DNA from: a virus
Reading direction: 5' to 3' (one strand)
Virus record (IMG/VR): IMGVR_UViG_3300034121_001039
Location: 1 to 31,608 of that record
Length of the DNA stretch: 31,608 bases
Position 1 is the first letter of the stretch. Every line of letters starts with the position of its first letter. The notes beneath the pieces are model-generated. The model saw nothing but the letters and a program-made list of their open reading frames with translations. It was not told the DNA's origin and ran no database searches. The translations under genes were made by a program, and so were the position numbers. Shown piece by piece: positions 719-31,608 of this stretch.

Positions 719-1366
719 ATGAAAAAAATCATTACATGGGAAGAGTTTAATGAATCTTATAATAAACCAAGAGTAGGTGGTAAAAAGAGATGGTCTGTTA
801 AATATAAAAAAACAATAGACTGTAATAATCCTAAAGGTTTTTCACAAAAACAATATTGTAAGAGAAAAAGAAAAGGTGGTAATTATAAGTCTGTTAAAGA
901 AAACTTTGGTCTATCTGACCAAGAAATAGAAAATAAGATAATGGAAGTATGGAAAGTAGATCCATATGAGTTTAAAGACTACATTACTTCATCTATGGAT
1001 CATGGTGACTTATATGGAAGTTGTAATTTGACTTTTGTTCTTTGGTATCCTTATCCAGATTCTAATGTCGAACCATGTGCCATATTTATGTTAGAAGATA
1101 ACGAATGGAAGAAAGGACCTTGGTATGACAATATGGATGCTATATTGAAAAGTGAAAGATATGAAGTTGGTATAGAAGCTTGGGTTCCGGATGTTGGTGG
1201 TAATCATGAAAAGATAGAGAAGTTTTACAACTACGCAAACAGAGTTCTACAGGAAGCGGATATACCATACATTGCATCTTATCCAGATGTTCGACACGAA
1301 GGAAAGATACTTTTAGAGTATGGCTATACCTGGGGTTATAAAACAAAATTCATTGGCGACGAATAA
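719..1366 (+). CDS. Hypothetical protein with capsid-targeting-like N-terminus
   Basis: A 215-residue protein. It begins MKKIITWEEFNES, with the spacing of the T4 internal-protein targeting peptide (MKTYQEFIAEA): basic start, W7-x-x-F10, then NE. Residues about 33-53 form a basic Cys motif (CNNPKGFSQKQYCKRKRKG) of a type I recall from other phage proteins and suspect of nucleic acid binding. The remainder, rich in Trp, Tyr and acidic residues, is not recognised. The late-type motif sits 4 nt upstream and there is no Shine-Dalgarno. Late expression plus the N-terminal tag suggests an internal virion protein; the function is unknown. Confidence 0.8.
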   Translation: MKKIITWEEFNESYNKPRVGGKKRWSVKYKKTIDCNNPKGFSQKQYCKRKRKGGNYKSVKENFGLSDQEIENKIMEVWKVDPYEFKDYITSSMDHGDLYGSCNLTFVLWYPYPDSNVEPCAIFMLEDNEWKKGPWYDNMDAILKSERYEVGIEAWVPDVGGNHEKIEKFYNYANRVLQEADIPYIASYPDVRHEGKILLEYGYTWGYKTKFIGDE

Positions 1367-1394: not shown

Positions 1395-2045
1395 ATGAGA
1401 TACCTAAAAACGTTCGAAAGCCACAGCAGTAAAGACATTCTTATTGTTGTTGATGTTCAAAAATCATTCAAAAAATTCTTCAATGAGATTTATCTTCATG
1501 AGTTGAAAAAGTATTGTAATGAGTTCAGTAAGGTATATCAAATCTGGGACAACCACGTAGATGGAAAGAACGTCGATAAAGACTATCTATATGATGAAGA
1601 TCCTGAAATACCTGTTCATAAAGATCTTTATCACTTTCCTAACCAAACTGACTTGATTGAGAAAAGATACAACTATGACGTTGATGCAGACTTCTATAAA
1701 AAAGTTCTTACACCGGAAACCTATGAAGAAGTTAAGACTAAAGAAGATGCAAACGAATTGAAAAAGGGAGATTTCTTTCCTACAGAAGAAGGAACTCTTA
1801 TTATATATGTCGGAAATAACCACAAATGGTATCATATGCCAAAGAAACTTCACGAACTTTTTACAGAAGTTGCAGAGGCACAAAATATGAATGAAGGATT
1901 GAGTGAGGTTAAAGATGTGATTCTTGTAGGTGGTGCAGATGGAGAATGTCTTACAGATGTTGAAACTGCAGCAGAGGCAATGGGTGTAAAACTGAGACTT
2001 AATCACAAATATATCTATAGTGCTAGCCACTGTCCAATAAAATAA
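1395..2045 (+). CDS. Isochorismatase-like cysteine hydrolase
   Basis: A 216-residue protein of the isochorismatase/nicotinamidase superfamily. The first strand carries the catalytic Asp (ILIVVDVQKSF, D20). The C-terminal VGGADGECLTDVETAAEAMG carries the nucleophile Cys185 followed by the usual T-A-x-x-A-x-x-G helix. A central Lys near LIEKRY would complete the Asp-Lys-Cys triad. Family members hydrolyse amides or enol ethers such as nicotinamide, isochorismate or N-carbamoyl compounds; the substrate here cannot be read. The N-terminus MRYLKTFESHSS precedes the fold and weakly resembles the capsid-targeting tag, without a clear (L/I)NE. A late-type motif is directly upstream. The gene at 2055 follows after 9 nt, probably in the same transcript. 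Confidence 0.82.
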   Translation: MRYLKTFESHSSKDILIVVDVQKSFKKFFNEIYLHELKKYCNEFSKVYQIWDNHVDGKNVDKDYLYDEDPEIPVHKDLYHFPNQTDLIEKRYNYDVDADFYKKVLTPETYEEVKTKEDANELKKGDFFPTEEGTLIIYVGNNHKWYHMPKKLHELFTEVAEAQNMNEGLSEVKDVILVGGADGECLTDVETAAEAMGVKLRLNHKYIYSASHCPIK

Positions 2046-2651: not shown

Positions 2652-3025
2652 CCAACCACCAAATATACATCTAAGTCTCTTATCTGGAAAAATACTTCCA
2701 TGTATTCTTGATATCTTTCTGGATCTTCAAAAAATGATACAGTTAATGTATATTCTATTCCGTTTATTTCTGGAATATAGCTACCAATCTGTTGTTTAAG
2801 ATCACTTTCTATACTATCCGAAGAAAGTCTCGTCTGGTGAAGATAGAAAGGAAGGTCTCCTCCGAATTCAGTATCAAAAAAAACCTCACCTTTGTTCGTA
2901 AATAGAATCATCTCCCATTTTTGAACGATTACTCTTATTACATCGTCTTCTATGAGATCTAATGCTCTGAATCTTGGATGTCCAGGATATCCTAAATAAA
3001 AGTCTGTGAAATTAAAGTTCGCCAT
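2648..3025 (-). CDS. 25: Baseplate wedge protein, gp25/W family
   Basis: A 125-residue protein matching the GPW/gp25 family, the lysozyme-like wedge protein of contractile tail baseplates. The signature runs from about residue 30: VIVQKWEMILFTNKGEVFF, then an acidic-Gly-Gly-x-L step (TEFGGDLPFYL), followed by alternating helices and a C-terminal strand pair. T4 gp25 is similar in size. It acts in baseplate wedge assembly and sheath nucleation. A late-type motif lies 3 nt before the start on this strand, fitting late structural expression. It is encoded next to gp44, with about 28 nt between the two genes. Confidence 0.85.
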   Translation of the reverse strand: MANFNFTDFYLGYPGHPRFRALDLIEDDVIRVIVQKWEMILFTNKGEVFFDTEFGGDLPFYLHQTRLSSDSIESDLKQQIGSYIPEINGIEYTLTVSFFEDPERYQEYMEVFFQIRDLDVYLVVG

Positions 3026-3028
3026 GAG

Positions 3029-3040
3029 TTATATATTAAC
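3029..3040 (-). promoter_or_regulatory. Late-type motif GTTAATATATAA
   Basis: On the minus strand GTTAATATATAA ends 3 nt before the gp25 ATG. Confidence 0.55.
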
Positions 3041-3053
3041 TTTGGCATATCCT

Positions 3054-4013
3054 TTATTTTAAAATATCTCTAAACTTCCCTATTATCGTCATACCTAATA
3101 CAATCGGATCTGTGTTTGTTTCCAGCTTACTTGTATAGTCTGCTATGACATAGTTACATTCAAACAGTTTATCGATATTTTTACCATTTTCAATAGACCA
3201 GTCTATGAATGGCTTACCTAATAACTTAATCATTGAATCAATCTTCTCTGCACCAAAGTTTGACATAAGAAAATGATAAACACTTTCATAGTTTCCACTT
3301 TCATAGATAAAGTTGTACAAATCTTTTTTTACTTTATTGGATACGTTACTTACTCCATTGTTTATATCTCCTGTCTCTAAAAAATCCTGTACTTCTACAA
3401 GAATACCTCTAAAGTCTGGGAACTTTTTGTTTATTATAGAAACTAAATTTTCTTTAGATATTTCTCGTTCTTCTTTTGGTAAAATAGTGTCTTGTATTCT
3501 TTTGTACAACTCCATTTTTAGATGTTTTTCTTCTTCCACATCTATACAATCAAAGTTTACAGTCTTTATTCTAGACTTTAATCCGTCTGAAATTTTGTTG
3601 ATGTGATTCGTCGTGATTATAAATCTTACACTATTGTTATATTTTTCTATGAATGCTTTGAATGCGTCTTGGAATTGTGCAGAAACTCTTTCAAACTCAT
3701 CTAAAAAAACATATTTTATATCGGAACTTGACTCAAACATTGGAGTGAACTTACAGAAATTCTGTATTTCTTCTCTAAGAACATCTATAGAAGTATCTAA
3801 AGAACAGTTAAGTTCTAAGTATGGTGTTTCTTTTGTATATTTTCCAACAAGTATTCTTGCCAAACTGGTTTTCCCAGTTCCATAGTGACCATAGAAAATA
3901 TAATGTTGGTTGATACCGTTTTCGAATTGTTTCTTTATTCGTGGAAGAAGTATGATGTCTTCTAGACGTTTTGGTCTCCATTTCTCCCAAAGCAATAAGT
4001 TTTTAACTGACAT
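3054..4013 (-). CDS. 44: Sliding clamp loader ATPase, gp44-like
   Basis: A 319-residue AAA+ ATPase, the same length as T4 gp44. In order: an N-terminal WEKWRPKRLEDI typical of clamp loaders, Walker A GHYGTGKTS (residues 42-50), Walker B YVFLDEF, sensor 1 IITTNH, and the arginine finger in KSRI. The C-terminal collar follows. It would load the gp45-type ring on primed DNA with a gp62 partner; neither gp45 nor gp62 is in the window. The upstream element GACAATATATCA is shared with the RNase R gene and differs from the late motif, which fits earlier expression of a replication gene. Confidence 0.95.
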   Translation of the reverse strand: MSVKNLLLWEKWRPKRLEDIILLPRIKKQFENGINQHYIFYGHYGTGKTSLARILVGKYTKETPYLELNCSLDTSIDVLREEIQNFCKFTPMFESSSDIKYVFLDEFERVSAQFQDAFKAFIEKYNNSVRFIITTNHINKISDGLKSRIKTVNFDCIDVEEEKHLKMELYKRIQDTILPKEEREISKENLVSIINKKFPDFRGILVEVQDFLETGDINNGVSNVSNKVKKDLYNFIYESGNYESVYHFLMSNFGAEKIDSMIKLLGKPFIDWSIENGKNIDKLFECNYVIADYTSKLETNTDPIVLGMTIIGKFRDILK

Positions 4014-6708: not shown

Positions 6709-7074
6709 ATGTACTTAAATAATAGAGAACTTTACATAGAATTAGTAGTCAGCAAAGCACAGGGAAGACTTACAAGGCCCGCTCAAAAAATGCTAGAGCT
6801 TTTAGCAAAGAAAACAATCAAAAAAATGAGATATTGGTCGAATGACGACAAGATGGACTGTTACCAAAGTGGACTTCTATATGTATTTCAAAACTGGTAT
6901 AACTTCAACGAAGAGAAATCAGTAAATGCCTTCGCTTATTTCACCGAAATCTTTAAAAGGGGAATAGCCAAAGGATATAACGATCTTTATAAAAAGAAAG
7001 GTGACAACGAACATCAAATAAGACTTATTTCCATAGAAGGATCTAATGACGGAATGGGTCTACACTCTTTATAG
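6709..7074 (+). CDS. 55: Late-transcription sigma factor, gp55-like
   Basis: A 121-residue protein matching T4 gp55, the small sigma-like factor that directs host RNA polymerase to late promoters. The recognisable core is YWSNDDKMDCYQSGLLYVF, then NWYNF and SVNAFAYFTEIFKRGI, equivalent to sigma region 2 in gp55 homologues. T4 gp55 is longer (185 residues), so this form is short, and I do not see an obvious C-terminal clamp-binding hydrophobic motif. It would read the TTTAATATATA-type elements. A small open frame begins on the base after its stop codon (TAG then ATG), suggesting coupling. Confidence 0.85.
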   Translation: MYLNNRELYIELVVSKAQGRLTRPAQKMLELLAKKTIKKMRYWSNDDKMDCYQSGLLYVFQNWYNFNEEKSVNAFAYFTEIFKRGIAKGYNDLYKKKGDNEHQIRLISIEGSNDGMGLHSL

Positions 7075-7458: not shown

Positions 7459-8142
7459 ATGGAGAGAATAGATAGATTTAATGTATTTGAGGCCAAAATT
7501 GTTCCTTTGAACAGAATGCCCAGAAGTAGCCGAAAACCAGAGAGATCCGGAAGATCCGGAAGATTACTTACTGATGAACAAAAATACTATGATGAAAACC
7601 AAATAGAAGATACAAGTGGTCCAAAACCCGCTATGTTATTTACAGATGTTGTAGGATCTTCTAAAATGTGGTCCGACGATCCACAAACTATGAGCATACA
7701 ACTCGATAAACATTTTAAGATTATGGATAATCTTGCTAGAAAGTATGGTGGTTTTGTGGTTAAAACAATCGGTGACGCCTTTATGGTATATTTTCCAAAA
7801 AACGAAAAGTCATTAGAAAATGCTGTTGATTTTGCGGTAGAGGTAATCAAAATTGAAGAGCTTCCACTTAGAATAGGAATATGCTCTGGTAATATGACTG
7901 CCAAAAAATGTAGAATACAGAATGTTGAGCTTGTAGACTTTTTTGGAGATGTTGTGAACACTGCATCAAGAATGGAGTCCAAAGTTGCAGAGCAGGGTGG
8001 TATTGCATTTACCTCTGTTGATAATATTGATAATCAAATGGAGTCTATTTCAAAAAAATACAAATTGGTTAAGATAACTGGTAAAGGTATTCCAGATTTA
8101 AAAGGTGTGAAAGTCGAATTTGCTTATAAGTTAAAAGTATAA
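7459..8142 (+). CDS. Class III adenylate cyclase with capsid-targeting-like tag
   Basis: 227 residues from the ATG behind the late-type motif; an in-frame ATG at 7420 is less likely. Residues 1-12, MERIDRFNVFEA, match the T4 targeting pattern (F7-x-x-F10-E-A). Residues 13-56 are a basic, flexible linker. The cyclase homology domain spans about 57-225. All six classical residues are seen: metal ligands D63 (FTDVVGSS) and D106 (KTIGDAF), the adenine-selecting pair K102 and D160 (VDFFGDVVN), and transition-state N167 and R171. The K/D pair predicts ATP to cAMP. The single domain must dimerise to be active. No membrane or sensor domain is present. It converges on glutamine synthetase across a shared terminator. 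Confidence 0.92.
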   Translation: MERIDRFNVFEAKIVPLNRMPRSSRKPERSGRSGRLLTDEQKYYDENQIEDTSGPKPAMLFTDVVGSSKMWSDDPQTMSIQLDKHFKIMDNLARKYGGFVVKTIGDAFMVYFPKNEKSLENAVDFAVEVIKIEELPLRIGICSGNMTAKKCRIQNVELVDFFGDVVNTASRMESKVAEQGGIAFTSVDNIDNQMESISKKYKLVKITGKGIPDLKGVKVEFAYKLKV

Positions 8143-8174: not shown

Positions 8175-9248
8175 TTAGTTTTCTTCCAAAACTTCTTCGT
8201 CTTGTAGAATAGTTCTTACCATTCTATCAACTATTAAATATGGATCTCCGTTAGATGCTGGTCTTCTATCTTCGATATAACCAATCGCATTTGGATCGTT
8301 TATCGTAGAAGGAATTCTAATAGATTTAGTTCTATCTCCAATACCCCATCCAAAGTCTTTGATAGACGATGTTTCGTTCGCACCGGTTAGTCTTTCGTCA
8401 TTGTTCTCTCCATATACCGCTATATGTTCTGCATGAGTCTTCTCAAGCTTCTTACACATTTCGATTGCAATCTCTTTTTTGTTTACTTTGTCTTCTCTAA
8501 TATTTTTTGTCGAAAAGTTTACATGCATACCTGAACCATTCCAATCATTTCCTTTAAATGGTTTTGGATCTAATTCGATTCTATAATCAAACTCTTCACT
8601 CAATCTATGTAAAATGTATCTTGAAATCCATAGTTGATCCGCACCGTCTTCTGCAAATACAGTTCCTACTTGATATTCCCATTGTCCTAAAGCAACTTCT
8701 GCATTTGTTCCGGATATAGAGATTCCTGCATTAAGACAAAGGTCTGTATGTGCTTCTACAAACTCTCTTCCTACTACATTGTTAGCACCAACTGAACAAT
8801 AGTATTCACCTTGTTCTCTTGGCTCATCTTCTGTTGGCCATCCTAATGGTCTATTTGTTTTGTTATCAAAGATAAAATACTCTTGTTCCCATCCATACAT
8901 AGTTTCATCGTCATATTTTTTTAACGATTCGGTCATTTTAACTCTTGTATTACTTTCGTGTGGAGTACCATCAATATTATAAACCTCACAAAGAACTAAA
9001 ATAGAGTTTGTTGTAAATGGATTATGAAAATAGTTTTTAGGAACTAATAGTAATTCTGATTTAGATGTTTCTGCTTGGTATGTTGAAGATCCATCAAAGT
9101 TCCATACTGGTGCTTTTCTCAAACCATTTTTGTATGAATCTAAAATATTTGTTTCATCTTCGATGTGTTTCAGATTTACGACTTTTGTTTTTGTACGTAT
9201 TTGTTGTGTTTTGGCACCATCCAACCAAATATATTCTAACTTTTGCAT
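8175..9248 (-). CDS. glnA: Type II (eukaryotic-type) glutamine synthetase
   Basis: A full-length 357-residue GSII enzyme making glutamine from glutamate, ammonia and ATP. Signatures in order: WNFDGSST near residue 49, PF-type loop, GWEQEYFIFD with RPLGWP, YYCSVGANN, EVALGQWEYQVG, the ATP-site NGSGMHVNFST, HIAVYGENNDERLTG, then FGWGIGDRTKSIRIP and the C-terminal YIEDRRPASNGDPY. No key block is missing and the frame is intact, so it is probably active as a decamer, the family's usual form. Upstream is an AT-rich leader containing a strong hairpin at 9301-9326. A phage-borne GSII is unusual; it probably derives from a cellular gene and may keep glutamine supply up during infection. Confidence 0.95.
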   Translation of the reverse strand: MQKLEYIWLDGAKTQQIRTKTKVVNLKHIEDETNILDSYKNGLRKAPVWNFDGSSTYQAETSKSELLLVPKNYFHNPFTTNSILVLCEVYNIDGTPHESNTRVKMTESLKKYDDETMYGWEQEYFIFDNKTNRPLGWPTEDEPREQGEYYCSVGANNVVGREFVEAHTDLCLNAGISISGTNAEVALGQWEYQVGTVFAEDGADQLWISRYILHRLSEEFDYRIELDPKPFKGNDWNGSGMHVNFSTKNIREDKVNKKEIAIEMCKKLEKTHAEHIAVYGENNDERLTGANETSSIKDFGWGIGDRTKSIRIPSTINDPNAIGYIEDRRPASNGDPYLIVDRMVRTILQDEEVLEEN

Positions 9249-13675: not shown

Positions 13676-14152
13676 TTATGCTGCTGTTTCATATGTGTCT
13701 ACATAGAAGTAAACTACTTTATTATCTATTATATGCGGCCTTAAATCGACGGTCATTGAATTTTCCATAAGTTCTTTTACTACTTTACCCATAGGAGTTG
13801 ACAAAACTTTACATCTTAAAGTTAGTTTTTCCACTTTGTTTTCTTTTAAAATAAAAGACATTGATTTTATTGTAAGTACACTCATTTGTAGTGAAAGAAT
13901 ATTTCCACTATTTCCAAGCTGAGCAAACATAGATATTGATTCTATATCGAATTGTATTTTTTTACCAGATTCTAAAATACTTGTTAGTCTAATATCTCTT
14001 TTGAACGAAGTCCACTCTTTGTATCTAGACATCAAATCTTCAAATTGATCCAAAGTATTGTTTTGTAACAATACTTCGTAATCAAAATATTCTAGATTAT
14101 CATCTGATTCAGAAGGATCTAAATGAGACCAATCTTTGAATAACTGTCCCAT
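13676..14152 (-). CDS. Hypothetical protein coupled to RNase R
   Basis: A 158-residue protein beginning MGQLFKDWSHLDPSESDDNL. Its ATG overlaps the stop of the RNase R gene (TAATG), so it is very probably co-translated. The second half is beta-rich (LSLQMSVLTIKSMSFIL, then VEKLTLRCKVL and VVYFYVDTYE). It has no recognisable family. The tight coupling suggests either an RNase partner or a structural protein carried in the same operon. Confidence 0.7.
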   Translation of the reverse strand: MGQLFKDWSHLDPSESDDNLEYFDYEVLLQNNTLDQFEDLMSRYKEWTSFKRDIRLTSILESGKKIQFDIESISMFAQLGNSGNILSLQMSVLTIKSMSFILKENKVEKLTLRCKVLSTPMGKVVKELMENSMTVDLRPHIIDNKVVYFYVDTYETAA

Positions 14153-16035
14153 TAGAATCTCATGAAGTTTATCTGTTTCTTCTCTAAATCTACTGATTTA
14201 ACAACCGCTTTAATAGGATCTCCCAATCTAATCTGTTCTCCAAACTCATTGTATGCTAAATATTTATCTACATCTGCAGTCCATTTCCCATTAAGAGTTT
14301 CTAATCTTATCAAACCTTCACATTTGTTTTCTGTAATCTCTACATAGATTCCTCTATCCATTACTCCGGTAACAATACCATCGAATACCTGACCGATTCG
14401 GTCCTGAAGATATTCAGCTTGTTTGTATTTGATAGAATCTCTTTGTGCTCTGGATGCCACAAGTTCTCTAGCAGAACACCATTTTGCTTGTTCTTCAATC
14501 TTTGTAGGATTTCCTTGCTTTCCAGTCGTTAGTTTATCAAATAATATTCTATGTGTTATTAAATCTGGATATCTTCTGATTGGAGAAGTAAAGTGTGAAT
14601 AGTGTGTGAATCCTAATCCATAGTGTCCTATGTTCTTTATAGTATATACTGCCTTCGACATTGATCTCGTAACCAAAGTCTCAATCATATTTTCTTCAGG
14701 AGATCCTTTTATCTCTTTTAAAAGGTGATTAAGGTTATTTTTCAGTACATCTCCTTCCTCATCTAACTCAAGCTTGTAACCAAAATTGGTACATATACTT
14801 TGAAGAGATGCTAGCTTGTCACCGTTTGGTTTGTCGTGTACTCTATATACGTTGTGCCATTGGTCTTTTGCTAAAAGTTTGGCAACTGATTTGTTTGCCA
14901 ATAACATATATTCTTCAATCAATTTGTTTGCATCTTTCTGTTCTTTGAAGTAGACTCCGATTGGTTTTTTGTCATCTTCTGCAAGTTTGAACTTTACTTC
15001 AATACCACCCATTTCGATAGATCCATTTTTTATTCTAGTTCTTCTGATTTTTTTAGCCAATGTGTCTAATTGTCTAATCTCTTTATGATAGTCTCCATCT
15101 AATCCTTCGATTATCTCTTGTGCTTCTTCGTATGCATATCTTCTGTCAGAGTGTATTACAGTCTTTCCGTGCCAAGTATCTTTTATCTTTCCGTCTTTAT
15201 CTAATGTAAATACTGTTGAAAATGCCAATCTATCCACATTTGGTTTAAGTGAGCATATTCCATTAGAAAGTCTTTCGGGAAGCATAGGTACACATCTGTC
15301 TACTAAATAAACTGATGTTGCTCTTTTGAACGCTTCTTTATCTAATTCTGTTCCAAACTTTACATAGTGTGCAACGTCTGCAATATGTACTCCTACTTTT
15401 ATGTTATTAGGATCTCTCATATCTATTGAGATGGCATCATCAAAATCTTTTGCGTCTACAGGATCTATTGTTATAGTAGTCACGTCACGCATATCCTTTC
15501 TTGATTTAATTTCTTTTTCGGATATTATCTCAGGAACAAGTTCTGCTTCGTTAAGTACTTCTTGTGGAAATTCAACAGGTAGTCCATATTCGTACATAAT
15601 GGCATTCATTTCCGTATTGTTATCTCCAACAAATCCAAGTATCTTAGTAATCTTTCCTCTTGGTGATTTTTTGTCAAGATCCCAGTCTAAAAACTCTACT
15701 AACACTTTTTGTCCATTTTCAACATCCGACTTTCCTTTTATGTAGAAGTCTACCGCCATTTTAGAACTATCGGGTACTACAAAGATTGTATCGTTTTTTA
15801 CTTGAGCAGTTCCCACAAACTCTGTTTTAAATCTTGAAGTTGTTTCTAATACTTTACCTTCTAGTTTTTTTTGTCCTTGGAATATCTCTACTCGAGCAGT
15901 ATCTAAGTGAAGTGCATTAGCAGTCTTCTTTTTATGTATAAAGATTTCTTTACCATCTACTTTTATATTGGCGTTTCCTGACGTGGAGAATTCTACTTGC
16001 GTTTCGAATATGTCTCCTTCTTTAATTTTATTCAT
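14152..16035 (-). CDS. rnr: RNase R/RNase II family 3'-5' exoribonuclease
   Basis: 627 residues from MNKIKEGDIFETQVEF. An upstream in-frame ATG at 16080 lies inside the preceding gene and is less likely. Order: N-terminal cold-shock/OB domain (IFIHKKKTANAL), then the RNB catalytic domain. The RNB domain shows the metal site TIDPVDAKDFDDA (about residues 186-200), VGVHIADVAHYV, PERLSNGICSLKP, VYRVHDKPN and FTHYSHFTSPIRRYPDL. A C-terminal S1 domain (GQVFDGIVTGVMDRGIYVEI) follows. The Lys-rich tail of many RNase R proteins is absent. Family members degrade structured RNA and act with tmRNA on nonstop mRNA. The frame is intact and the catalytic Asp cluster complete. Confidence 0.94.
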   Translation of the reverse strand: MNKIKEGDIFETQVEFSTSGNANIKVDGKEIFIHKKKTANALHLDTARVEIFQGQKKLEGKVLETTSRFKTEFVGTAQVKNDTIFVVPDSSKMAVDFYIKGKSDVENGQKVLVEFLDWDLDKKSPRGKITKILGFVGDNNTEMNAIMYEYGLPVEFPQEVLNEAELVPEIISEKEIKSRKDMRDVTTITIDPVDAKDFDDAISIDMRDPNNIKVGVHIADVAHYVKFGTELDKEAFKRATSVYLVDRCVPMLPERLSNGICSLKPNVDRLAFSTVFTLDKDGKIKDTWHGKTVIHSDRRYAYEEAQEIIEGLDGDYHKEIRQLDTLAKKIRRTRIKNGSIEMGGIEVKFKLAEDDKKPIGVYFKEQKDANKLIEEYMLLANKSVAKLLAKDQWHNVYRVHDKPNGDKLASLQSICTNFGYKLELDEEGDVLKNNLNHLLKEIKGSPEENMIETLVTRSMSKAVYTIKNIGHYGLGFTHYSHFTSPIRRYPDLITHRILFDKLTTGKQGNPTKIEEQAKWCSARELVASRAQRDSIKYKQAEYLQDRIGQVFDGIVTGVMDRGIYVEITENKCEGLIRLETLNGKWTADVDKYLAYNEFGEQIRLGDPIKAVVKSVDLEKKQINFMRF

Positions 16036-16420
16036 TATCTTTTTTCTTTTTTGATATATTGTCGACTCCGTATTTTTCAATCAGAGTGTTTTTCATTTTT
16101 GACAATACTTTTTTATTCTGTATGGGATAGTCTACTCCGAAGTTTTTTCTTAGAGTTTCTTTTCGTTTGACCTCTGAGCATTTTCTACACGAATAGTCTC
16201 CCCAGTTTTTGTTGTCGTATTTTAAGTAGTTTTTGTAGATGACTTCTTTTTCAGTGCCACATCCATCACATTTGCATTTTACTTTATAATGTGATCCGTT
16301 TGGTAGAAGTCCAACGGGAATGATTATTATCTCACCTATTGAAATATCGTATCCTAAGTCCTCATAGTATTGGTAGTTGGACTCGTTTATTTTAATTTCA
16401 ATTTCTCTTGTAAGTATCAT
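16028..16420 (-). CDS. Zinc-finger, homing-endonuclease-like remnant
   Basis: 130 residues from MILTREIEIKINES; an ATG at 16474 is possible but runs back through a hairpin. A four-Cys zinc finger is seen (CDGCG near residue 55, CRKC near 83). It is followed by FGVDYPIQNKKVLSKMKN and EKYGVDNIS. The YGV-N/D-x-x-S repeat is typical of large phage homing-endonuclease-like proteins with several such repeats and a further C-terminal nuclease domain. Here the protein stops after the second unit, so it is probably truncated. Its stop overlaps the RNase R start by 8 bases. Start and function are uncertain. Confidence 0.6.
   Translation of the reverse strand: MILTREIEIKINESNYQYYEDLGYDISIGEIIIIPVGLLPNGSHYKVKCKCDGCGTEKEVIYKNYLKYDNKNWGDYSCRKCSEVKRKETLRKNFGVDYPIQNKKVLSKMKNTLIEKYGVDNISKKKKDNE
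16052..16063 (-). promoter_or_regulatory. GACAATATATCA motif upstream of RNase R
   Basis: Identical 12-mer to the one before gp44, about 17 nt before the RNase R ATG and inside the 3' end of the preceding gene. Confidence 0.4.
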
Positions 16421-16617: not shown

Positions 16618-18720
16618 ATGAAACCAGTTCTAATTGTAGAAAATTCAACGAACTCTCTTATAAGAGAAAGTTCAAGCACTGGTAAGAAGGACTATATTTT
16701 GGGTGGTACATTCACTGAATTCGGCGTTAAAAACCGTAATGAGAGAATCTACACTGCTGCAAAATTCCTTCCTGCTTTAGAGGAGATGAATGAAAGAATG
16801 AACAATCTTGGAATTGTCTACGGTGAATTTGATCATCCAGACGTTTTCGATACTTCACTTTCAAGAGCTTCTCACGTAATTACGAAAGCTAATTACGTAA
16901 AAGAATCAAACTTGGTAGAAGGTGAAATCAGATTATTAAGCACTTATTGGGGAAAAGAGGCAAAATCGTTAGTAGACGATGGTTGTCCTATTTTCGTTTC
17001 ATCTAGGGCTGCAGGTATTACTGAATCTGATGGCACTGTATCATTAAAAAAACTATTTACTTACGACATCGTTGCTGACCCAGGTTTTGCATCGGCTAAA
17101 ATGAGTGTAAAGGTTCTTAATGAGTCACTTGGTTATGACAACCCAAAATCTAACTTTAGGATATATGATTTATCCAACGAGTCAAAAACGGAAGAGTTAT
17201 TTAATATGAACAACAACGAATTTGTTACTAAACAACAACTAACTGACTACTCTCAGTATTTGGTTAAAGAGTTGGCATCAACTAAAAAAGAAGTTAAGAC
17301 TGCCATTACTAAAGGGAATATGAACCCTAAAAAACTTGAGCAATTGCTTGAGTATTACGATGAATTGAACAACACTAATTCACAAGTAGCTAAATATTTA
17401 GATTACTTAGCTGAGAAAGTTCAAATTATGGTAAATGAAAACAAGTCTTTGAAAGAAACTACAGAGAAATTAATCAAACATAACGATTATTTAGCTGAAA
17501 ATCTTGAAAAGGCTGTAAACTATTCTGAATACTTAGCAGAAAACTTAGATAAGAACATTGCTTATTCTGAATATGTTGCTGAAAACTTAGACAAAAACAT
17601 TGCTTATTCTGAGTATGTTGCTGAAAACGTAGACAAAAACATTTCTTACACAGAATATGTTGCTGAAAACTTAGACAAAAACATTGCTTACTCTGAATAC
17701 TTAGCAGAAAACTTAGACAAAAACATTGCTTACTCTGAATACATTGCTGAGAGCTTAGACAAATCTATTGCTTATGGTGAGTATATCGCAGAACACGTTG
17801 ATAACTCTATTGCTTACTCTGAATACTTAGCAGAACACGTTGAAGGTAACATCGCTTACTCTGAATACATTGCTGAACATTTAGATGATAATATTGCTTA
17901 CTCTGAATACATTGCTGAAAATTTAGACAAATCTATTAACTACCAAGGATTAATCGTTGAGAAGTTAAACGGTGGTAAATTGAACGAATCAGAAGGAGCA
18001 TTCCCATCATTAAATGCTGCAGGATTTGAAGATCTTGAAGATGAAAACGATGATGAAAATGAAAATGCATATGGATCTGAAGAAGAAGACGAAGATGAAA
18101 ACGGAATCGCAGAAATGACTCCTAATCATGCATACGCACACGAAGATAATGAAGATGAGAATGAAGATGAGGATTGTGGCCCAGGTGTTACAGGAAACTC
18201 AGATTCAGAATTATCAGAATCTATTGATAAATTAATCGAAGAAGCTAAAAAACGTAAAGTTTCTGAGACATCAGATTTGAATTTCTTGAAATTCATGTCT
18301 AAATCACAAGTTGATAGCTACTATGCTTTAACTAACGAAGAACAAGAGACAGTAAAACTACACATAAACGAAAGTAGCTACTTCACACAAAAAGAAGTAT
18401 TGTCTTTAATCTCTGAAGCGTTATCAACTAAAAACGAATCTCTTGAAGAAAGAGTAATCAGAATGATGCCTGAGAACACAAAGGCTATCTGGAATCAGTT
18501 AAATGAGTCTGCAAAAAAATCTATCATTTCACAAGCTAGATTATATCCTGCAGAAGTATTAATGACTGAAGGTCAAGTTGAACATTTTTGGGCAACAAGA
18601 AACCTAAAAAAGAATGAATCTGTATCTAAAAAACTTGTTTCTCACGAAGCTCTTATCCAAGAAGATAAGTTGTCTGATAATGACGTAACAGCTATTATGG
18701 AAAGATTCAAAAACATTTAA
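16618..18720 (+). CDS. 21-22: Prohead protease-scaffold fusion (gp21-gp22 type)
   Basis: 700 residues. Residues 1 to about 168 are a gp21-like prohead protease: GGTFTEFGVKNRNERIY, catalytic His73 in GEFDHPD and the Ser in FVSSRAAG (128/129). Residues about 170-290 are helical. About 294-441 consist of about ten 14-residue units (consensus YSEYIAENLDKNIA), a two-heptad coiled-coil repeat. An acidic linker (about 465-520) and a C-terminal helical domain with HFWATRNL follow. (L/I)NE tripeptides at 167-169, 455-457, 583-585 and 628-630 sit at domain borders or in linkers and look like self-cleavage sites. In T4 protease and scaffold are separate genes; here one chain would supply both and be processed during maturation. 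Confidence 0.92.
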   Translation: MKPVLIVENSTNSLIRESSSTGKKDYILGGTFTEFGVKNRNERIYTAAKFLPALEEMNERMNNLGIVYGEFDHPDVFDTSLSRASHVITKANYVKESNLVEGEIRLLSTYWGKEAKSLVDDGCPIFVSSRAAGITESDGTVSLKKLFTYDIVADPGFASAKMSVKVLNESLGYDNPKSNFRIYDLSNESKTEELFNMNNNEFVTKQQLTDYSQYLVKELASTKKEVKTAITKGNMNPKKLEQLLEYYDELNNTNSQVAKYLDYLAEKVQIMVNENKSLKETTEKLIKHNDYLAENLEKAVNYSEYLAENLDKNIAYSEYVAENLDKNIAYSEYVAENVDKNISYTEYVAENLDKNIAYSEYLAENLDKNIAYSEYIAESLDKSIAYGEYIAEHVDNSIAYSEYLAEHVEGNIAYSEYIAEHLDDNIAYSEYIAENLDKSINYQGLIVEKLNGGKLNESEGAFPSLNAAGFEDLEDENDDENENAYGSEEEDEDENGIAEMTPNHAYAHEDNEDENEDEDCGPGVTGNSDSELSESIDKLIEEAKKRKVSETSDLNFLKFMSKSQVDSYYALTNEEQETVKLHINESSYFTQKEVLSLISEALSTKNESLEERVIRMMPENTKAIWNQLNESAKKSIISQARLYPAEVLMTEGQVEHFWATRNLKKNESVSKKLVSHEALIQEDKLSDNDVTAIMERFKNI
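17515..17940 (+). repeat. 42-bp in-frame tandem repeat in scaffold
   Basis: About ten degenerate copies of a 42-bp unit (start AACATTGCTTACTCTGAATA) encode the 14-residue coiled-coil unit. Some neighbouring copies are nearly identical in DNA, indicating recent duplication or gene conversion. Confidence 0.9.
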
Positions 18721-18805: not shown

Positions 18806-20569
18806 ATGTCACACATTAGAATAGACAAAGCGAAAGCTACAAAGAAATGGGCTCCTGTTCTTGAGAACATGGGAGTTACTGGTGATAGAGTTGAATGGAT
18901 GGCGGAATACGCTGAGTTTCACTCAATCAACGAAAACGCATACGTAAACGCATCTAACGTTGCTGGTATGGGTGGTGTATTTGCTGCACAACCAGGAAGT
19001 TATGCTGGACAAACAAACGGTGGTACTTTAGCTACTGCAGCTTCAGTTGGAACAATCGGTTCAGGTGATGTTGGTCAAAACTTATTGCCAGTTGCAATGA
19101 AAATTGCTGCTCAAACAATCGGTTTAGACTTAGTTGCTGTTAAACCAACTCCAGGTCCGAAAATCGATTTACTTTACATCGATTTCCAATATGATGATAC
19201 TAGATTAGGTGCATCTGACGAAAGACCACAAGTTTTCAAATTAAATGTTGGTGCATCTGCATCTGTATTTAATGCTGCAATCCAAACAGGTGTTGGTTCA
19301 ACAATCGCACAAAATCAAGGTGGATTACAAAATGGTAGATATTTCTACTCAATCAATGGTGCTGGTACTCAGTCATTAGGTAACCCAACAATCTTGAGCG
19401 GAAACGTTGCTGGTGCAACAGTTTCAACTACTGAGCCTTTACAAAAAACTGGTGTTGTTGAGTTCTTAGGATTCTCTAGAATTGATGGTTTCCCAATGTT
19501 CAGAGCGTTTAGACAAGCTAACACTGCACACACTGCAGTTGATCAAGCTAACCTTGCTTGGACATTAGATCCATCAAGAAACACATTTACTGCTACTGCA
19601 TCTATGACTTCTCAAATCACTCACCTTGCTGGTCTTACTATTGCATCTGGAACTGTGACTATTGAGTTAATCTCTGCATTAGAAGATCATATCCCAGGTT
19701 TCTCAACAAACTTTGGTGGTGTTCCTTCTGGATCTGCACAAGGTTCTTACCCAATGTCAAGAAAAGAAGATGATGATACTTATGCTGGTGTTATCGGACC
19801 AAAAATCTCTTCTAAAACTATCGCAGTTGGTACTATCGAAGTATCTTCAGCTTTAAGAAGAACAGAAATCGAAGATATCAAAGCTAACACAGGTATGGAT
19901 ATCGTTCAAAAAATGGAATCTATCCTTGTTAATGAGTTGTCTCAAACAATCTCTAAACAAATCGTTGCTAAAATCTTCGAAATGGGTGCTTTAAACAGAA
20001 CTCTTGCTCCATTAGCAAGTGGGAAAATTGCAGTTACTGCTACTGCTTCTACTATCTTTGACTTAGATACTGCTTATGTTGGTGCTATGAATGGTGGTGA
20101 AACTACTCACGCTGTACAAAGAAAATTGATCACGAAAATTGCTCATGCTTCTAACTACATCGCAACAGAAGGAAGGGTAGGACCTGCTCAATATCTTGTA
20201 ACAAACGGAGGTTTGGCTGCGGCACTTCAAGATATCGCTGGTTATACTGTAAACCCAGTTAAATCTAAATTAAACGGACAAGGTCAGTTGTACCCTGTAG
20301 GTTCTATCGGAGATATCGCTATCTATGTTGATCCTTACATGAAATATAACGACAACAGAATCGTTTTAGGAAGAAAAAACAACCCAGATCAACCAGGTAT
20401 CATTTTCGTACCTTATTTGATGGCTCAATCTATCTCAGTTATTTCTGAAGCGACTTTCGCACCAAGAATGTTACTAAGATCTAGATATGCAGTTGCTGAA
20501 GTTGGTTGGTTCCCACAAAAACAATTTATGACTTTAGTTATAACTGATAACTCTCAGTACTTAAACTAA
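18806..20569 (+). CDS. 23: Major capsid protein, gp23-like
   Basis: A 587-residue HK97-fold capsid precursor; T4 gp23 is 521. N-terminal KATKKWAPVLENMGV corresponds to the helical propeptide. SINE at 40-43, followed by NAYVNASNVAGM, is the likely prohead protease cut. Then LLPVAMKIAAQTIGLDLVAV, the inserted variable region, TIEVSSALRRTEIEDI, and the C-terminal GSIGDIAIYVDPYMKYND and FAPRMLLRSRYAVAEVGWF, all matching gp23 homologues. It forms the hexameric shell. Codon use is regular, fitting very high expression. It is followed by a terminator and preceded by its own late-type motif. Confidence 0.95.
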   Translation: MSHIRIDKAKATKKWAPVLENMGVTGDRVEWMAEYAEFHSINENAYVNASNVAGMGGVFAAQPGSYAGQTNGGTLATAASVGTIGSGDVGQNLLPVAMKIAAQTIGLDLVAVKPTPGPKIDLLYIDFQYDDTRLGASDERPQVFKLNVGASASVFNAAIQTGVGSTIAQNQGGLQNGRYFYSINGAGTQSLGNPTILSGNVAGATVSTTEPLQKTGVVEFLGFSRIDGFPMFRAFRQANTAHTAVDQANLAWTLDPSRNTFTATASMTSQITHLAGLTIASGTVTIELISALEDHIPGFSTNFGGVPSGSAQGSYPMSRKEDDDTYAGVIGPKISSKTIAVGTIEVSSALRRTEIEDIKANTGMDIVQKMESILVNELSQTISKQIVAKIFEMGALNRTLAPLASGKIAVTATASTIFDLDTAYVGAMNGGETTHAVQRKLITKIAHASNYIATEGRVGPAQYLVTNGGLAAALQDIAGYTVNPVKSKLNGQGQLYPVGSIGDIAIYVDPYMKYNDNRIVLGRKNNPDQPGIIFVPYLMAQSISVISEATFAPRMLLRSRYAVAEVGWFPQKQFMTLVITDNSQYLN

Positions 20570-20659: not shown

Positions 20660-21058
20660 ATGAGAAATCTAAGTACATTCAAACGATTCTTAAATGAAGG
20701 TAAAAAAGATAAGTTTCCAGATATTAAAAAGTCTGAAATAGATGGATTTATAGTCTATTTAGGTAGAGATGCGAAATCAAATGACCATCTTACTTTCAAT
20801 GTTGCAGACGAAGAAGATATATGGATGCACGTTAAAGGTGTACCAGGTAGTCACGTAGTTATTAGAGTAAGAGAGAATCTTCCTACAGAAACAACTATTA
20901 AAAAGGCAGCAGAACTTGCTAAGAAGAATAGTAAAGCAAAGGATAAAGAAAATGCGATTGTTGTTTATTGTCAAAGAAAATTCGTTAAGAAAGATCCTGG
21001 TATGAATGATGGACAAGTCAAAGTTGACTATGTCAATGCTCACGATATTAATATATAA
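20660..21058 (+). CDS. NFACT-R domain protein with capsid-targeting-like tag
   Basis: 132 residues. Residues 1-14, MRNLSTFKRFLNEG, fit the targeting pattern (F7-x-x-F10) and end in the LNE seen at predicted protease sites. From about residue 28 it is an NFACT-R (DUF814) domain: GFIVYLGRDAKSNDHLTF, the core EDIWMHVKGVPGSHVVIR, a helix KKAAELAKKNS, then VVYCQRKFVKKDPGMNDGQV. In RqcH/NEMF this domain binds RNA and contacts tRNA and ribosome during quality control. The NFACT-N, HhH and coiled-coil parts are all absent, so it cannot be a full RqcH. Stand-alone NFACT-R proteins exist in bacteria. It might inhibit or mimic host rescue factors. Confidence 0.9.
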   Translation: MRNLSTFKRFLNEGKKDKFPDIKKSEIDGFIVYLGRDAKSNDHLTFNVADEEDIWMHVKGVPGSHVVIRVRENLPTETTIKKAAELAKKNSKAKDKENAIVVYCQRKFVKKDPGMNDGQVKVDYVNAHDINI

Positions 21059-22447: not shown

Positions 22448-22858
22448 ATGAAACTAAAAAAATATAACAACTATCTTAACGAAGATAAGTACGAAGACGA
22501 ATACTTTGACGAATATGGTTCTCAGGATGATTATGAAGGACAGGATGATGCACAAGGTGATGATGATATGGAACACCTTTTGTATCTATTAAGAACGTTT
22601 TTAAAGGATTCTGGTATAAACAATGTAAGTTTGAAGAACTCGGACTCTAGTATAAAATTAGAGATTGTTTTAAAAACAAAAGAAAGATTGACTGATGTAA
22701 TAAAAACTTTTGCAGTTCTTAAAAAACTATCAAATGATATAATGGCAGATTATGATGCAGAGTTTGATATCTGGGAAACCAAACAAGGAGATCCGTTGTT
22801 GATTATCGATTATTATTCACCAGAATATGGTGATGATGAAGATGGAGCACCTTTTTAA
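22448..22858 (+). CDS. Acidic protein with capsid-targeting-like tag
   Basis: 136 residues, starting one base after the peptidase stop. MKLKKYNNYLNED has the Y-x-x-Y spacing and LNE end of the targeting tags. Residues about 13-40 are a strongly acidic linker (YEDEYFDEY, GDDDME). The remainder is a small alpha/beta domain, helical at about 42-55 and beta-rich near KLEIVLKTKERLTDVIK. Family unknown. The coupling suggests co-production with the peptidase; the tag suggests it is an internal head protein. Confidence 0.75.
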   Translation: MKLKKYNNYLNEDKYEDEYFDEYGSQDDYEGQDDAQGDDDMEHLLYLLRTFLKDSGINNVSLKNSDSSIKLEIVLKTKERLTDVIKTFAVLKKLSNDIMADYDAEFDIWETKQGDPLLIIDYYSPEYGDDEDGAPF

Positions 22859-23724: not shown

Positions 23725-24243
23725 ATGATAATAGATAAATTTGATGGTAGATGGAGGTTTTTATCCAACTTCCACCCATGTGAGGTAGAACATCAAGGTA
23801 TAATATATCCTTCAGTAGAACATTACTATGTTGCAATGAAATGTAACAACGAGCAAATGTTAAATGGTAGACATTATACTATTGGTGATTTCAGAGAAAT
23901 GATTGCTCGTATTCCAAATGCTGCGATTGTTAAATCTCTTGGTAAAAAAATGCAGGTTAGAAAAGATTGGGATGAAAAGAAACTTGACTTCATGCTGTAT
24001 GGTGTCAGAGAAAAATTCAAAGATTCGGGTCTTGCGGAACTTTTACTATCAACAGAAGATTCTTCCTTGGTTGAAGGAAACGATTGGAACGACAAGTTCT
24101 GGGGCGTGTGTCAAGGAAAGGGTTTAAACCATTTAGGTCGAATACTTATGAAAGTCAGAAAAGAAGTAAAAGAAAAAGAAACTGGTGTTGTAGCAAAACC
24201 AAATTCTTTAGATGAATTCTTCAAACAAAGCAGACAAAACTAA
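23725..24243 (+). CDS. NADAR (YbiA-like) domain protein
   Basis: 172 residues, nearly all one NADAR domain: FLSNFHPCEVEHQGIIYPS with VEHYYVAMK at 12-39, and GNDWNDKFWGVCQGKGLNH with LGRILMKVR near 117-145. NADAR proteins are N-glycosidases acting on ADP-ribosylated or riboflavin-pathway compounds. Recent work assigns some of them reversal of ADP-ribosylation of guanine in DNA by DarT2. Glu32 and the aromatic residues of the family are kept. A short C-terminal tail (NSLDEFFKQSRQN) extends beyond the domain and could be a partner-binding peptide. It lies just before an adenine methyltransferase, so a DNA-protection role is plausible. Confidence 0.9.
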   Translation: MIIDKFDGRWRFLSNFHPCEVEHQGIIYPSVEHYYVAMKCNNEQMLNGRHYTIGDFREMIARIPNAAIVKSLGKKMQVRKDWDEKKLDFMLYGVREKFKDSGLAELLLSTEDSSLVEGNDWNDKFWGVCQGKGLNHLGRILMKVRKEVKEKETGVVAKPNSLDEFFKQSRQN

Positions 24244-27168: not shown

Positions 27169-27933
27169 TTATTTGAATTGTTTATCGTATGATTTGTTTT
27201 TCAACTCCATCACTTTGTTGATGTATCCATTTCTTCTCAAAAGTTTGAACACTAGGTTTCCAGTAGAATATTCACCACTTTCACTTTCTAAACCACTTTT
27301 TCTAAAGTCTTTAACTTTTTTCCAAACTTTATCAAGTTTTTCTTTAAAAGCTTTATATTGATCTTCGTTTACTTGTTCTTCAAGTTCTTCAATCTGTTCC
27401 ATAACAGGTTTTGCTTTCTTACGAATAATCTTTTCATCTGGTTCAAAGTCTGCCTTTTCTGGTCTTTTGATCCATTCGTTATTCATTAACGAAAAGGCAC
27501 CACCCATTCTTCCAGTTTTTATTGCAGTTTTTAAATCTTCTTTATCTTGAATAGCAACTTCTACTTCATATCCTTTGATTTTAATATCGTGTTGTGCATT
27601 CCAGATTTTCTTAGCAAGGTCACAAACGGTTTCTGCCAACTCTAAATCATCATCGATATCTTTTTGATTAACTATTATATGAAGGTCATAATCTGAATAT
27701 TTTTCAGACCAGTTGTAGTTACACAAAGAACCACAAAGAACTATATCAAGTACATCTACTTGTATATTACTTCCATCGAAGAAGTCTTGTCCTATTTGAA
27801 GAAGGTCTCTTCTTACTTCCTCATCTAACTCAAAGTTGTCCCACAACTTTGTATTAAGTTCGTCTTTTAAATAGAACGACTTTATTGCCTCAAAGTCTGC
27901 TTGAACAAATTCGTAAAATTTTCTAAGTTTCAT
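27169..27933 (-). CDS. Pol-beta-fold nucleotidyltransferase with capsid-targeting-like tag
   Basis: 254 residues from the ATG at 27933. An ATG at 27960 adds nine residues but runs through the late-type motif, so 27933 is preferred. The N-terminus MKLRKFYEFVQAD has F6-x-x-F9. The nucleotidyltransferase motif is CGSLCNYNWSEKYSDYDLHI (68 onward) with metal ligands D81 and D83; the third acid is probably E125 in GYEVEVAIQD. WNAQHDIKIKG and GGAFSLMNNEWIKRP match a large phage family of unknown substrate. Residues about 165-254 form a charged helical tail. It may add nucleotides to RNA or protein; the target cannot be read. Confidence 0.85.
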   Translation of the reverse strand: MKLRKFYEFVQADFEAIKSFYLKDELNTKLWDNFELDEEVRRDLLQIGQDFFDGSNIQVDVLDIVLCGSLCNYNWSEKYSDYDLHIIVNQKDIDDDLELAETVCDLAKKIWNAQHDIKIKGYEVEVAIQDKEDLKTAIKTGRMGGAFSLMNNEWIKRPEKADFEPDEKIIRKKAKPVMEQIEELEEQVNEDQYKAFKEKLDKVWKKVKDFRKSGLESESGEYSTGNLVFKLLRRNGYINKVMELKNKSYDKQFK

Positions 27934-30833: not shown

Positions 30834-31608
30834 TTAGCAGTTATTAGACAGAAAAAGTAATACGGTTTGTGTTATCGCATCCGCGGATACATAGTTATTA
30901 TTAGATCCTGAGAATGTTCCTGACATTTTCATTGATCCTGTTAGTCCAAGTTGATTTCCGTCAAAAGTCATGTTTGTTTCACCAACCAAACCAGTTGTTG
31001 TTCCGTCTGACGTTATTACTCTATTGTTTCCGTAGTTTGTTATTGTCGCACCACCGCCTCCGCCCCCGGTTTGATCAACCCATTGAGTGTTATAGTCGGT
31101 TGTATCTATTTTTGCCAATACCTGACCGCTTGTTCCGCCTGTTGGTATTCCAAAACCGGATGTTCCTGATGTTCCGTTTACACCCGAAGTTCCTGATGTT
31201 CCGTTTACACCCGAAGTTCCTGATGTTCCGTTTACACCGCTTGTTCCTGATGTTCCATCAACACCCGAAGTTCCTGATGTTCCGTTTACACCGCTTGTTC
31301 CTGATGTTCCGTTTACACCGCTTGTTCCTGATGTTCCGTTTACACCGCTTGTTCCTGATGTTCCGTTTACACCCGAAGTTCCTGATGTTCCGTTTACACC
31401 GCTTGTTCCTGATGTTCCATCAACACCCGAAGTTCCTGATGTTCCGTTTACACCCGAAGTTCCTGATGTTCCGTTTACACCGCTTGTTCCTGATGTTCCA
31501 GAAGTTCCATTTACACCCGAAGTTCCACTTGTTCCATCAACACCACTTGTTCCAGAAGTTCCATCAACTCCAGAAGTTCCGCTTGTTCCATCAACACCAC
31601 TTGTTCCA
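30834..31608 (-). CDS. Collagen-like tail fibre, 5' partial
   Basis: The frame is open from the right edge of the window, so the start and the amino-terminal part lie outside. A run of Gly-X-Y triplets (GTSGVNGTSGTSGVDG) covers about 140 residues. Next comes GTSGFGIPTGGTSGQVLAKI with DTTDYNTQWVDQ, a joint common in phage fibres, then a GGGGGG stretch. The last about 75 residues are beta-rich (NRVITSDGTTTGLVGET to FLSNNC). Collagen-like parts form trimeric, stiff shafts; the C-terminus would be the tip. The accessory modules follow downstream. A TTG at 31118 could initiate but would lose the shaft. Confidence 0.85.
   Translation of the reverse strand, partial: GTSGVDGTSGTSGVDGTSGTSGVDGTSGTSGVNGTSGTSGTSGVNGTSGTSGVNGTSGTSGVDGTSGTSGVNGTSGTSGVNGTSGTSGVNGTSGTSGVNGTSGTSGVNGTSGTSGVDGTSGTSGVNGTSGTSGVNGTSGTSGVNGTSGTSGFGIPTGGTSGQVLAKIDTTDYNTQWVDQTGGGGGGATITNYGNNRVITSDGTTTGLVGETNMTFDGNQLGLTGSMKMSGTFSGSNNNYVSADAITQTVLLFLSNNC
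31160..31608 (-). repeat. 27-bp tandem repeat encoding Gly-X-Y
   Basis: Units such as GATGTTCCGTTTACACC plus CGAAGTTCCT or GCTTGTTCCT recur near perfectly up to about 31500 and become more degenerate towards the window edge. Each 27-bp unit encodes three Gly-X-Y triplets. Confidence 0.9.

Follow-up and report, generated by a model that had tools for sequence, protein, structure and literature searches.

A class III adenylate cyclase with a capsid-targeting-like tag as predicted head cargo of huge phages

Can a phage carry an enzyme that makes a second messenger into its host together with its DNA? The question is raised by a locus in a 31.6-kb fragment of the virus record IMGVR_UViG_3300034121_001039 (the window, that is, the whole stretch of DNA analysed here), which the original prediction had described as encoding a complete adenylate cyclase that may be delivered by the virion. 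The major capsid protein of the window is 72% identical to that of LR756502 (642 kb) and 70% to that of LR745206 (about 634–635 kb); further off are the 735-kb LR756501 (51%) and the Lak phages (∼29%). By this affinity of its major capsid protein, we place the window in the Mahaphage clade of huge phages, for whose members of >634 kb Bacteroidetes are predicted as hosts (PMC7162821). The longest relative that shares the window's gene order, including the cyclase, is a 135-kb contig. To our knowledge, no phage of the Mahaphage clade has been cultured. The two ends of the window encode a low-complexity QGQGQA-rich protein (1–647) and a tail-fibre-like protein with collagen-like GTSG repeats (30834–31608).

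Table 1. Features of the cyclase locus, the head genes and the tagged genes. Coordinates are those of the window unless another record is named; arrows mark predicted cleavage.
Feature	Position	Strand	Basis or remark
Tagged protein, MKKIITWEEFNE↓S	719..1366	+	tag scan
Nicotinamidase/isochorismatase-like protein, short tag MRYLKTFE↓S	1395..2045	+	function by eye; promoter element at −13
gp55-like late sigma factor	6709..7074	+	phrog_234 late sigma transcription factor, E 4.5e-07
Late-promoter-like element TTATATATA, 13 nt ahead of the cyclase start codon	7446..7454	+	
Class III adenylate cyclase gene, 227 aa	7459..8142	+	PF00211; PDB sequence matches; AlphaFold fold match
CTS-like tag, residues 1–11 (MERIDRFNVFE), predicted cleavage after E11 (VFE↓A)	7459..7491	+	orthologues; pN/pS; tagged proteins in relatives
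Variable linker, residues 12–31	7492..7551	+	no invariant column; pN/pS 0.75; disordered in model
Catalytic domain, about residues 57–210	7627..8088	+	alignment to ATP-bound 5oyh; phage relatives
Metal-binding D63	7645–7647	+	aligned to 5oyh; invariant in phage relatives
Adenine-pair K102	7762–7764	+	aligned to ATP-bound 5oyh
Metal-binding D106	7774–7776	+	aligned to 5oyh; invariant in phage relatives
Adenine-pair D160	7936–7938	+	aligned to ATP-bound 5oyh
Transition-state N167	7957–7959	+	within VNTASR
Transition-state R171	7969–7971	+	within VNTASR
Glutamine synthetase, convergent neighbour	8175..9248	−	PF00120/PF03951; NCBIfam GlnII E 1e-106, below curated cut-off; context only
Prohead protease fused to scaffold-like repeat region	16618..18720	+	phrog_207 head maturation protease, E 1.6e-29
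gp23-type major capsid protein	18806..20569	+	profile match to T4 gp23, E 4e-08
Tagged NFACT-R domain protein, MRNLSTFKRFLNE↓G	20660..21058	+	PF05670, E 3.6e-17
Tagged acidic protein, MKLKKYNNYLNE↓D	22448..22858	+	tag scan
Nucleotidyltransferase-like protein, weaker tag MKLRKFYEFVQ	27169..27933	−	phrog_36119, E 8e-32
Tag plus capsid-arm mini-proteins, basic tail	LR756502 80294–80539; LR745206 93266–93520; G007 2785–3084		

The predicted cyclase reading frame is indeed present and complete (Table 1). Its start codon is best placed at ATG 7459 rather than at the in-frame ATG 7420, because the frame upstream contains stops in most orthologues and the N-terminal tag starts at 7459. This tag, originally drawn as 12 targeting-like residues, is real and far beyond chance, but is better drawn with 11 residues and E11 as the last. 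It has hydrophobic or aromatic residues near positions 4 and 7 (I4, F7, F10) and ends in a predicted prohead-protease site of the [ILV]xE type (VFE↓A), which matches the motif found across the clade. Most cyclase orthologues start with M[KRE]xI..F[KRN].FE↓[AEDS], and I4, F7, F10 and E11 are invariant in nine phage orthologues; the orthologue L011 has Q at position 11, with the site shifted to INE↓A. The linker that follows had been called basic, which is true of this allele but peculiar to it, orthologous linkers being shorter and often acidic. Across ten cyclase genes, pN/pS was 0.10 for the tag-core positions 4, 7, 9, 10 and 11, 0.395 for the remaining tag positions, 0.75 (nearly free drift) for linker residues 12–31, and 0.205 for residues 57–178 of the domain. 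The tag core is under the strongest conservation and purifying selection anywhere in the gene. Judged by these ratios, selection maintains both the tag and the enzyme, but not the linker.

To see how widely such a tag occurs, all ORFs with ATG starts were matched against the pattern M.{1,2}[ILVMFY]..[FWY]..[FYWIL].{0,2}E and compared with shuffles. The pattern was built after examples had been seen, so that the size of an excess matters and exact counts do not. Observed matches far outnumbered shuffled ones in LR745206 (60 versus 6.3, maximum 13 in 200 shuffles), LR756502 (90 versus 6.0), two IMG/VR contigs (15 versus 1.1 and 12 versus 1.0), the first 200 kb of LR756501 (13 versus 1.9) and the window itself (4 versus 0.4). 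No excess was seen in the first 200 kb of Lak-B5 (code 15; 1 versus 1.0), so not all of the wider clade uses the tag. As a control, internal methionines matched the pattern at only 0–0.55%. The commonest form is MK[YH]LKxYKIFE↓S, and tags in related phages end in [ILVF]xE↓S/A/N, giving a cleavage-like profile with I/L/F at P3, E at P1 and S/E/N/A at P1′. The end motif was also enriched in proteins selected for the first half of the pattern only, 44% of which had [ILVFM].E at residues 7–14, versus 16% (odds ratio 4.0, p 1e-34), with Ser as the next residue in 35% versus 7.7% in the background. With 60–90 like-tagged proteins per huge-phage genome (LR745206, LR756502; IMG/VR contigs G002 and G007), the tag apparently acts as a genome-wide code for virion cargo.

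The tagged proteins are diverse. Besides those of the window, they include an RNA ligase, a poly(A)/CCA-type nucleotidyltransferase, methyltransferases, NFACT-R and HNH proteins and a 2H phosphoesterase-exonuclease, a repertoire that would suit injected proteins for counter-defence and takeover. An LR756502 protein (236529–237620) that starts with MIMLSKFYEFKE↓V shares the sequence after its tag with the nucleotidyltransferase-like protein of the window. The nicotinamidase/isochorismatase-like protein matched no Pfam or NCBIfam family. In a tagged protein of LR745206 (448257–449573; L047:8260–9573), a 2H phosphoesterase domain occurs together with an RNase_T exonuclease domain and a match to Acb1 that stays below threshold; this protein is a candidate injected anti-CBASS or RNA-repair enzyme. 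We did not name it Acb1, an anti-CBASS protein, as the match lies below the Pfam cut-off and within a 2H-phosphoesterase/exonuclease protein.

If the tag is a propeptide, the phage should encode a matching head system, and the window contains both a gp21-type protease and a gp23-type capsid protein (Table 1). A single-sequence PDB search gave no real match to T4 gp23 or gp21, and gp23 was matched only with the capsid profile. T4 makes its protease and scaffold as separate proteins, whereas the two are fused here. The repeat region of the fused protein holds 36 [ILV]xE sites, compared with 18.4 in shuffles, and eleven [ILV]AE↓N/S/H sites recur at 14-residue spacing; each 14-residue repeat (YSEYLAENLDKNIA) carries one predicted protease site. 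The capsid protein has a predicted propeptide cut at SINE43↓NAYVNASNVAGMG (SINE43↓NAYVNASN). Crucially for the role of the tag, three small tagged proteins of related genomes run on into the N-arm of the capsid protein, as exemplified by MKHLKNYKSFNE↓DATANASTAGMGGVSPAQPG. Their alignments to the arm score 76, 108 and 81 (shuffle maxima 54, 53 and 43), and the final E of the tag aligns with the predicted cleavage E of the capsid protein. Of all the evidence, this coincidence argues most strongly for the tag being a prohead propeptide; the mini-proteins themselves are possible minor head proteins.

The position of the cyclase gene suggests late expression, with a late-promoter-like element at −13 and an adjoining gp55-like late sigma gene. 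The element resembles the T4 late element TATAAATA. Elements of the TTATATATA/TAATATATA type stand ahead of 11 of the 14 tagged or structural genes of the window and of 2 of its other 23 genes (Fisher p 3e-5, for a grouping of genes that we drew up ourselves), and for five of six tagged genes, including the cyclase, the element begins exactly 13 nt 5′ of the start codon. Similarly, 37% of tagged genes in related genomes have the element at −15 to −12, compared with 11% of other genes (p 6e-15), although some tagged genes lack it. With TWATATATA elements at −13, tagged genes may give rise to mRNAs with little or no leader. We infer that a late gene whose product acts early must have that product packaged.

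The best reading of the locus, and one we consider likely, is that of an adenylate cyclase which is made late, enters the head, loses its tag by a cut after E11 and is injected. Several independent computational lines support the delivery by the virion that had been proposed: the CTS-like tag recurs in dozens of unrelated proteins, has a gp21-type cleavage motif and coincides with the predicted capsid cleavage site, and the selection on the tag, the late-gene context and the gp21/gp23-type head system point the same way. A late cyclase that stays in the cytoplasm, where its cAMP would act in assembly or lysis and the tag would be a relic or have another role (e.g. localisation inside the infected cell), is unlikely: the late-like element and the late sigma neighbour would fit late expression alone, but the tag core is under the strongest purifying selection of the gene, the mini-protein tags end exactly at the predicted cleavage site of the capsid protein, and many unrelated enzymes carry the same tag, matching T4 internal proteins.

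The assignment of a role to the tag is by analogy with T4, whose few internal proteins are the classic example of proteins that a phage injects along with its DNA. T4 IPII and IPIII both begin MKTYQEFIAE↓A, as read directly from their sequences. In IPIII, ten residues suffice as a capsid-targeting sequence (CTS), with residues 4 and 7 serving targeting and 8 and 10 processing (PMC9026906); these are comparable to I4, F7, V9 and E11 of the cyclase. As in IPI, IPII, IPIII and Alt, the tag is short and N-terminal, has hydrophobic or aromatic residues near positions 4 and 7 and a [IL]xE↓A-type end, and it occurs together with a gp21-type protease and a gp23-type capsid; the cargo is otherwise unrelated in sequence. 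Unlike in T4, the dominant tag form (..YKIFE↓S) is spaced differently. T4 cargo consists of anti-restriction proteins, such as the injected Ip2 and Ip3 that block type IV restriction enzymes (PMC12373910), and ADP-ribosyltransferases, whereas here it would include a second-messenger enzyme among 60–90 tagged proteins per genome; the papers that we found report neither such an enzyme as cargo nor so many tagged proteins.

Is the predicted cargo an active cyclase? PF00211 matches it with E 2e-21, and class III cyclases are its best PDB matches by both sequence and fold, with 5oyh ranking first in both. The AlphaFold model (pTM 0.71; domain pLDDT mostly 75–94, residues 1–45 at low confidence) matches 5oyh with E 1e-13, pointing to the fold of a class III nucleotidyl cyclase. 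All six catalytic residues originally listed (D63, K102, D106, D160, N167, R171) are present under those numbers and invariant in phage alignments of 4, 9 and 10 sequences, and their invariance, including the K/D pair, holds down to about 50% identity. The proposed preference for ATP is likewise supported by sequence: K102 and D160 align with the corresponding positions of 5oyh, described as an ATP-bound guanylyl cyclase core with converted specificity. The predicted product is cAMP from ATP. The class III fold, the full catalytic set and the K/D pair for ATP are shared with 5oyh, the mycobacterial Rv1625c and Rv1900c, and Ma1120. Unlike these, the phage protein has no regulatory or membrane domain, in agreement with the predicted absence of any sensor or membrane segment, and has a CTS-like N-terminus instead.

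Class III folds can be repurposed, and models of the Pycsar cyclase PycC match weakly (best E 7e-07), so the packaged protein might be a nucleotide-binding decoy or sponge, or use another nucleotide, without being an adenylate cyclase. We regard this as quite improbable given the invariance of the six residues and the adenine pair to about 50% identity, the domain pN/pS of 0.205 and the different base-recognition residues of PycC (PMC11224242). More improbable by far is a phage-borne, Pycsar-like defence cyclase directed against competing phages. PycC belongs to the same superfamily and shares the setting of phage–bacterium conflict, and the PADLOC PycC models do give weak matches in the cyclase core common to both. 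However, PycC has pyrimidine-specific residues and a paired receptor, whereas the phage cyclase has the purine (ATP) pair K102/D160 in place of the pyrimidine-recognition residues (PMC11224242). No cyclic-nucleotide-binding protein (PF00027) that could serve as receptor or effector was found in the window, itself a fragment, or in 15 related phage records, six of them of 462–735 kb. The residues and the missing receptor led us to reject a Pycsar assignment.

The injected cyclase that we favour belongs to a divergent lineage. Two viral scans retrieved full-length orthologues at 52–100% identity, and the only match among 50,697 phage records was the cyclase of LR745206 (47.6%); the orthologue alignment comprised eleven distinct protein sequences. 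Phage cyclases had been called rare, which is right but not absolute, as other phage class III cyclase domains exist. Pelagiphages have adenylate cyclases in curli clusters (PMC9599517), and the uncultured Caudovirales proteins A0A6J5RWB7 and A0A6J5KRX6 (BFVD) contain a class III cyclase domain with weak fold similarity and 9–20% identity to ours; for none of these did we find any hint of packaging into virions. A first scan of cellular genomes confirmed no relative and a second gave seven weak, core-only matches, so no donor can be named and a cellular origin was not assigned.

In the window's group, the cyclase gene lies between the gp55-like late sigma gene and, in some contigs, a glutamine synthetase gene, followed by the portal region. 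Most class III cyclases are cellular, but host contamination or a mis-assembled cellular gene has a negligible probability, since eight further contigs of differing sequence have the same gene in this place, with the late sigma gene on one side and the portal region on the other, and the scans found neither a close cellular relative nor a near-identical gene outside a phage context. LR745206 has the same sigma–glutamine synthetase–portal–capsid order without the cyclase, which lies ∼330 kb away. The close relative LR756502 and more distant members have no cyclase and can therefore dispense with it. Because of this displacement and absence, the cyclase is to be seen as an accessory gene that was moved or separately acquired with its tag retained; indeed, the distant orthologues L138 and L011 keep the tag in different genomic contexts. 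The GlnII-like glutamine synthetase beside the cyclase is conserved in several relatives, and glutamine synthetases have also been reported in moraphages (PMC12619734).

Taken as head cargo, the stand-alone, homodimeric cyclase would be transcribed late from a gp55-type promoter. Residues 1–11 would then act as a capsid-targeting sequence binding the scaffold core of the prohead, and a gp21-like protease would cut after E11, setting the enzyme free inside the DNA-filled head. On infection, it would probably be ejected together with the viral DNA and convert host ATP to cAMP ahead of phage gene expression, which could cause a flood of second messenger at the moment of infection. This cAMP would act on cAMP-binding proteins of the host: as no PF00027 receptor was found in the phages, a receptor, if any, would be the host's. 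We slightly favour host reprogramming via CRP-family proteins over counter-defence. A broader view, plausible but held with less than even confidence, is that dozens of tagged enzymes (RNA ligase, nucleotidyltransferase, methyltransferases, 2H phosphoesterase, cyclase and others) are injected as an arsenal, in which the burst of cAMP overrides host signalling or blunts cyclic-nucleotide defence.

In the open-licence literature, we found no paper describing CTS tags of Mahaphages or a cyclase that is packaged. What is new here is that the proposed T4-type internal head cargo is an enzyme making a second messenger and that it belongs to an unusually large set of tagged proteins; the proposal is well supported by sequence and unproven. 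If the tag has been read correctly, the largest known phages inject proteins on a far larger scale than T4, and, among these, an enzyme making a signalling molecule would be at work in the host before the first phage gene is expressed. The tag would also allow the virion cargo of uncultured huge phages to be predicted from sequence by a simple rule. Elsewhere in the window, we observed a phage-encoded ribonuclease R (14152–16080, reverse strand; TIGR02063 above cut-off) and a NADAR-family protein (23725–24243; TIGR02464 above cut-off), the latter a possible counter to ADP-ribosylation defence.
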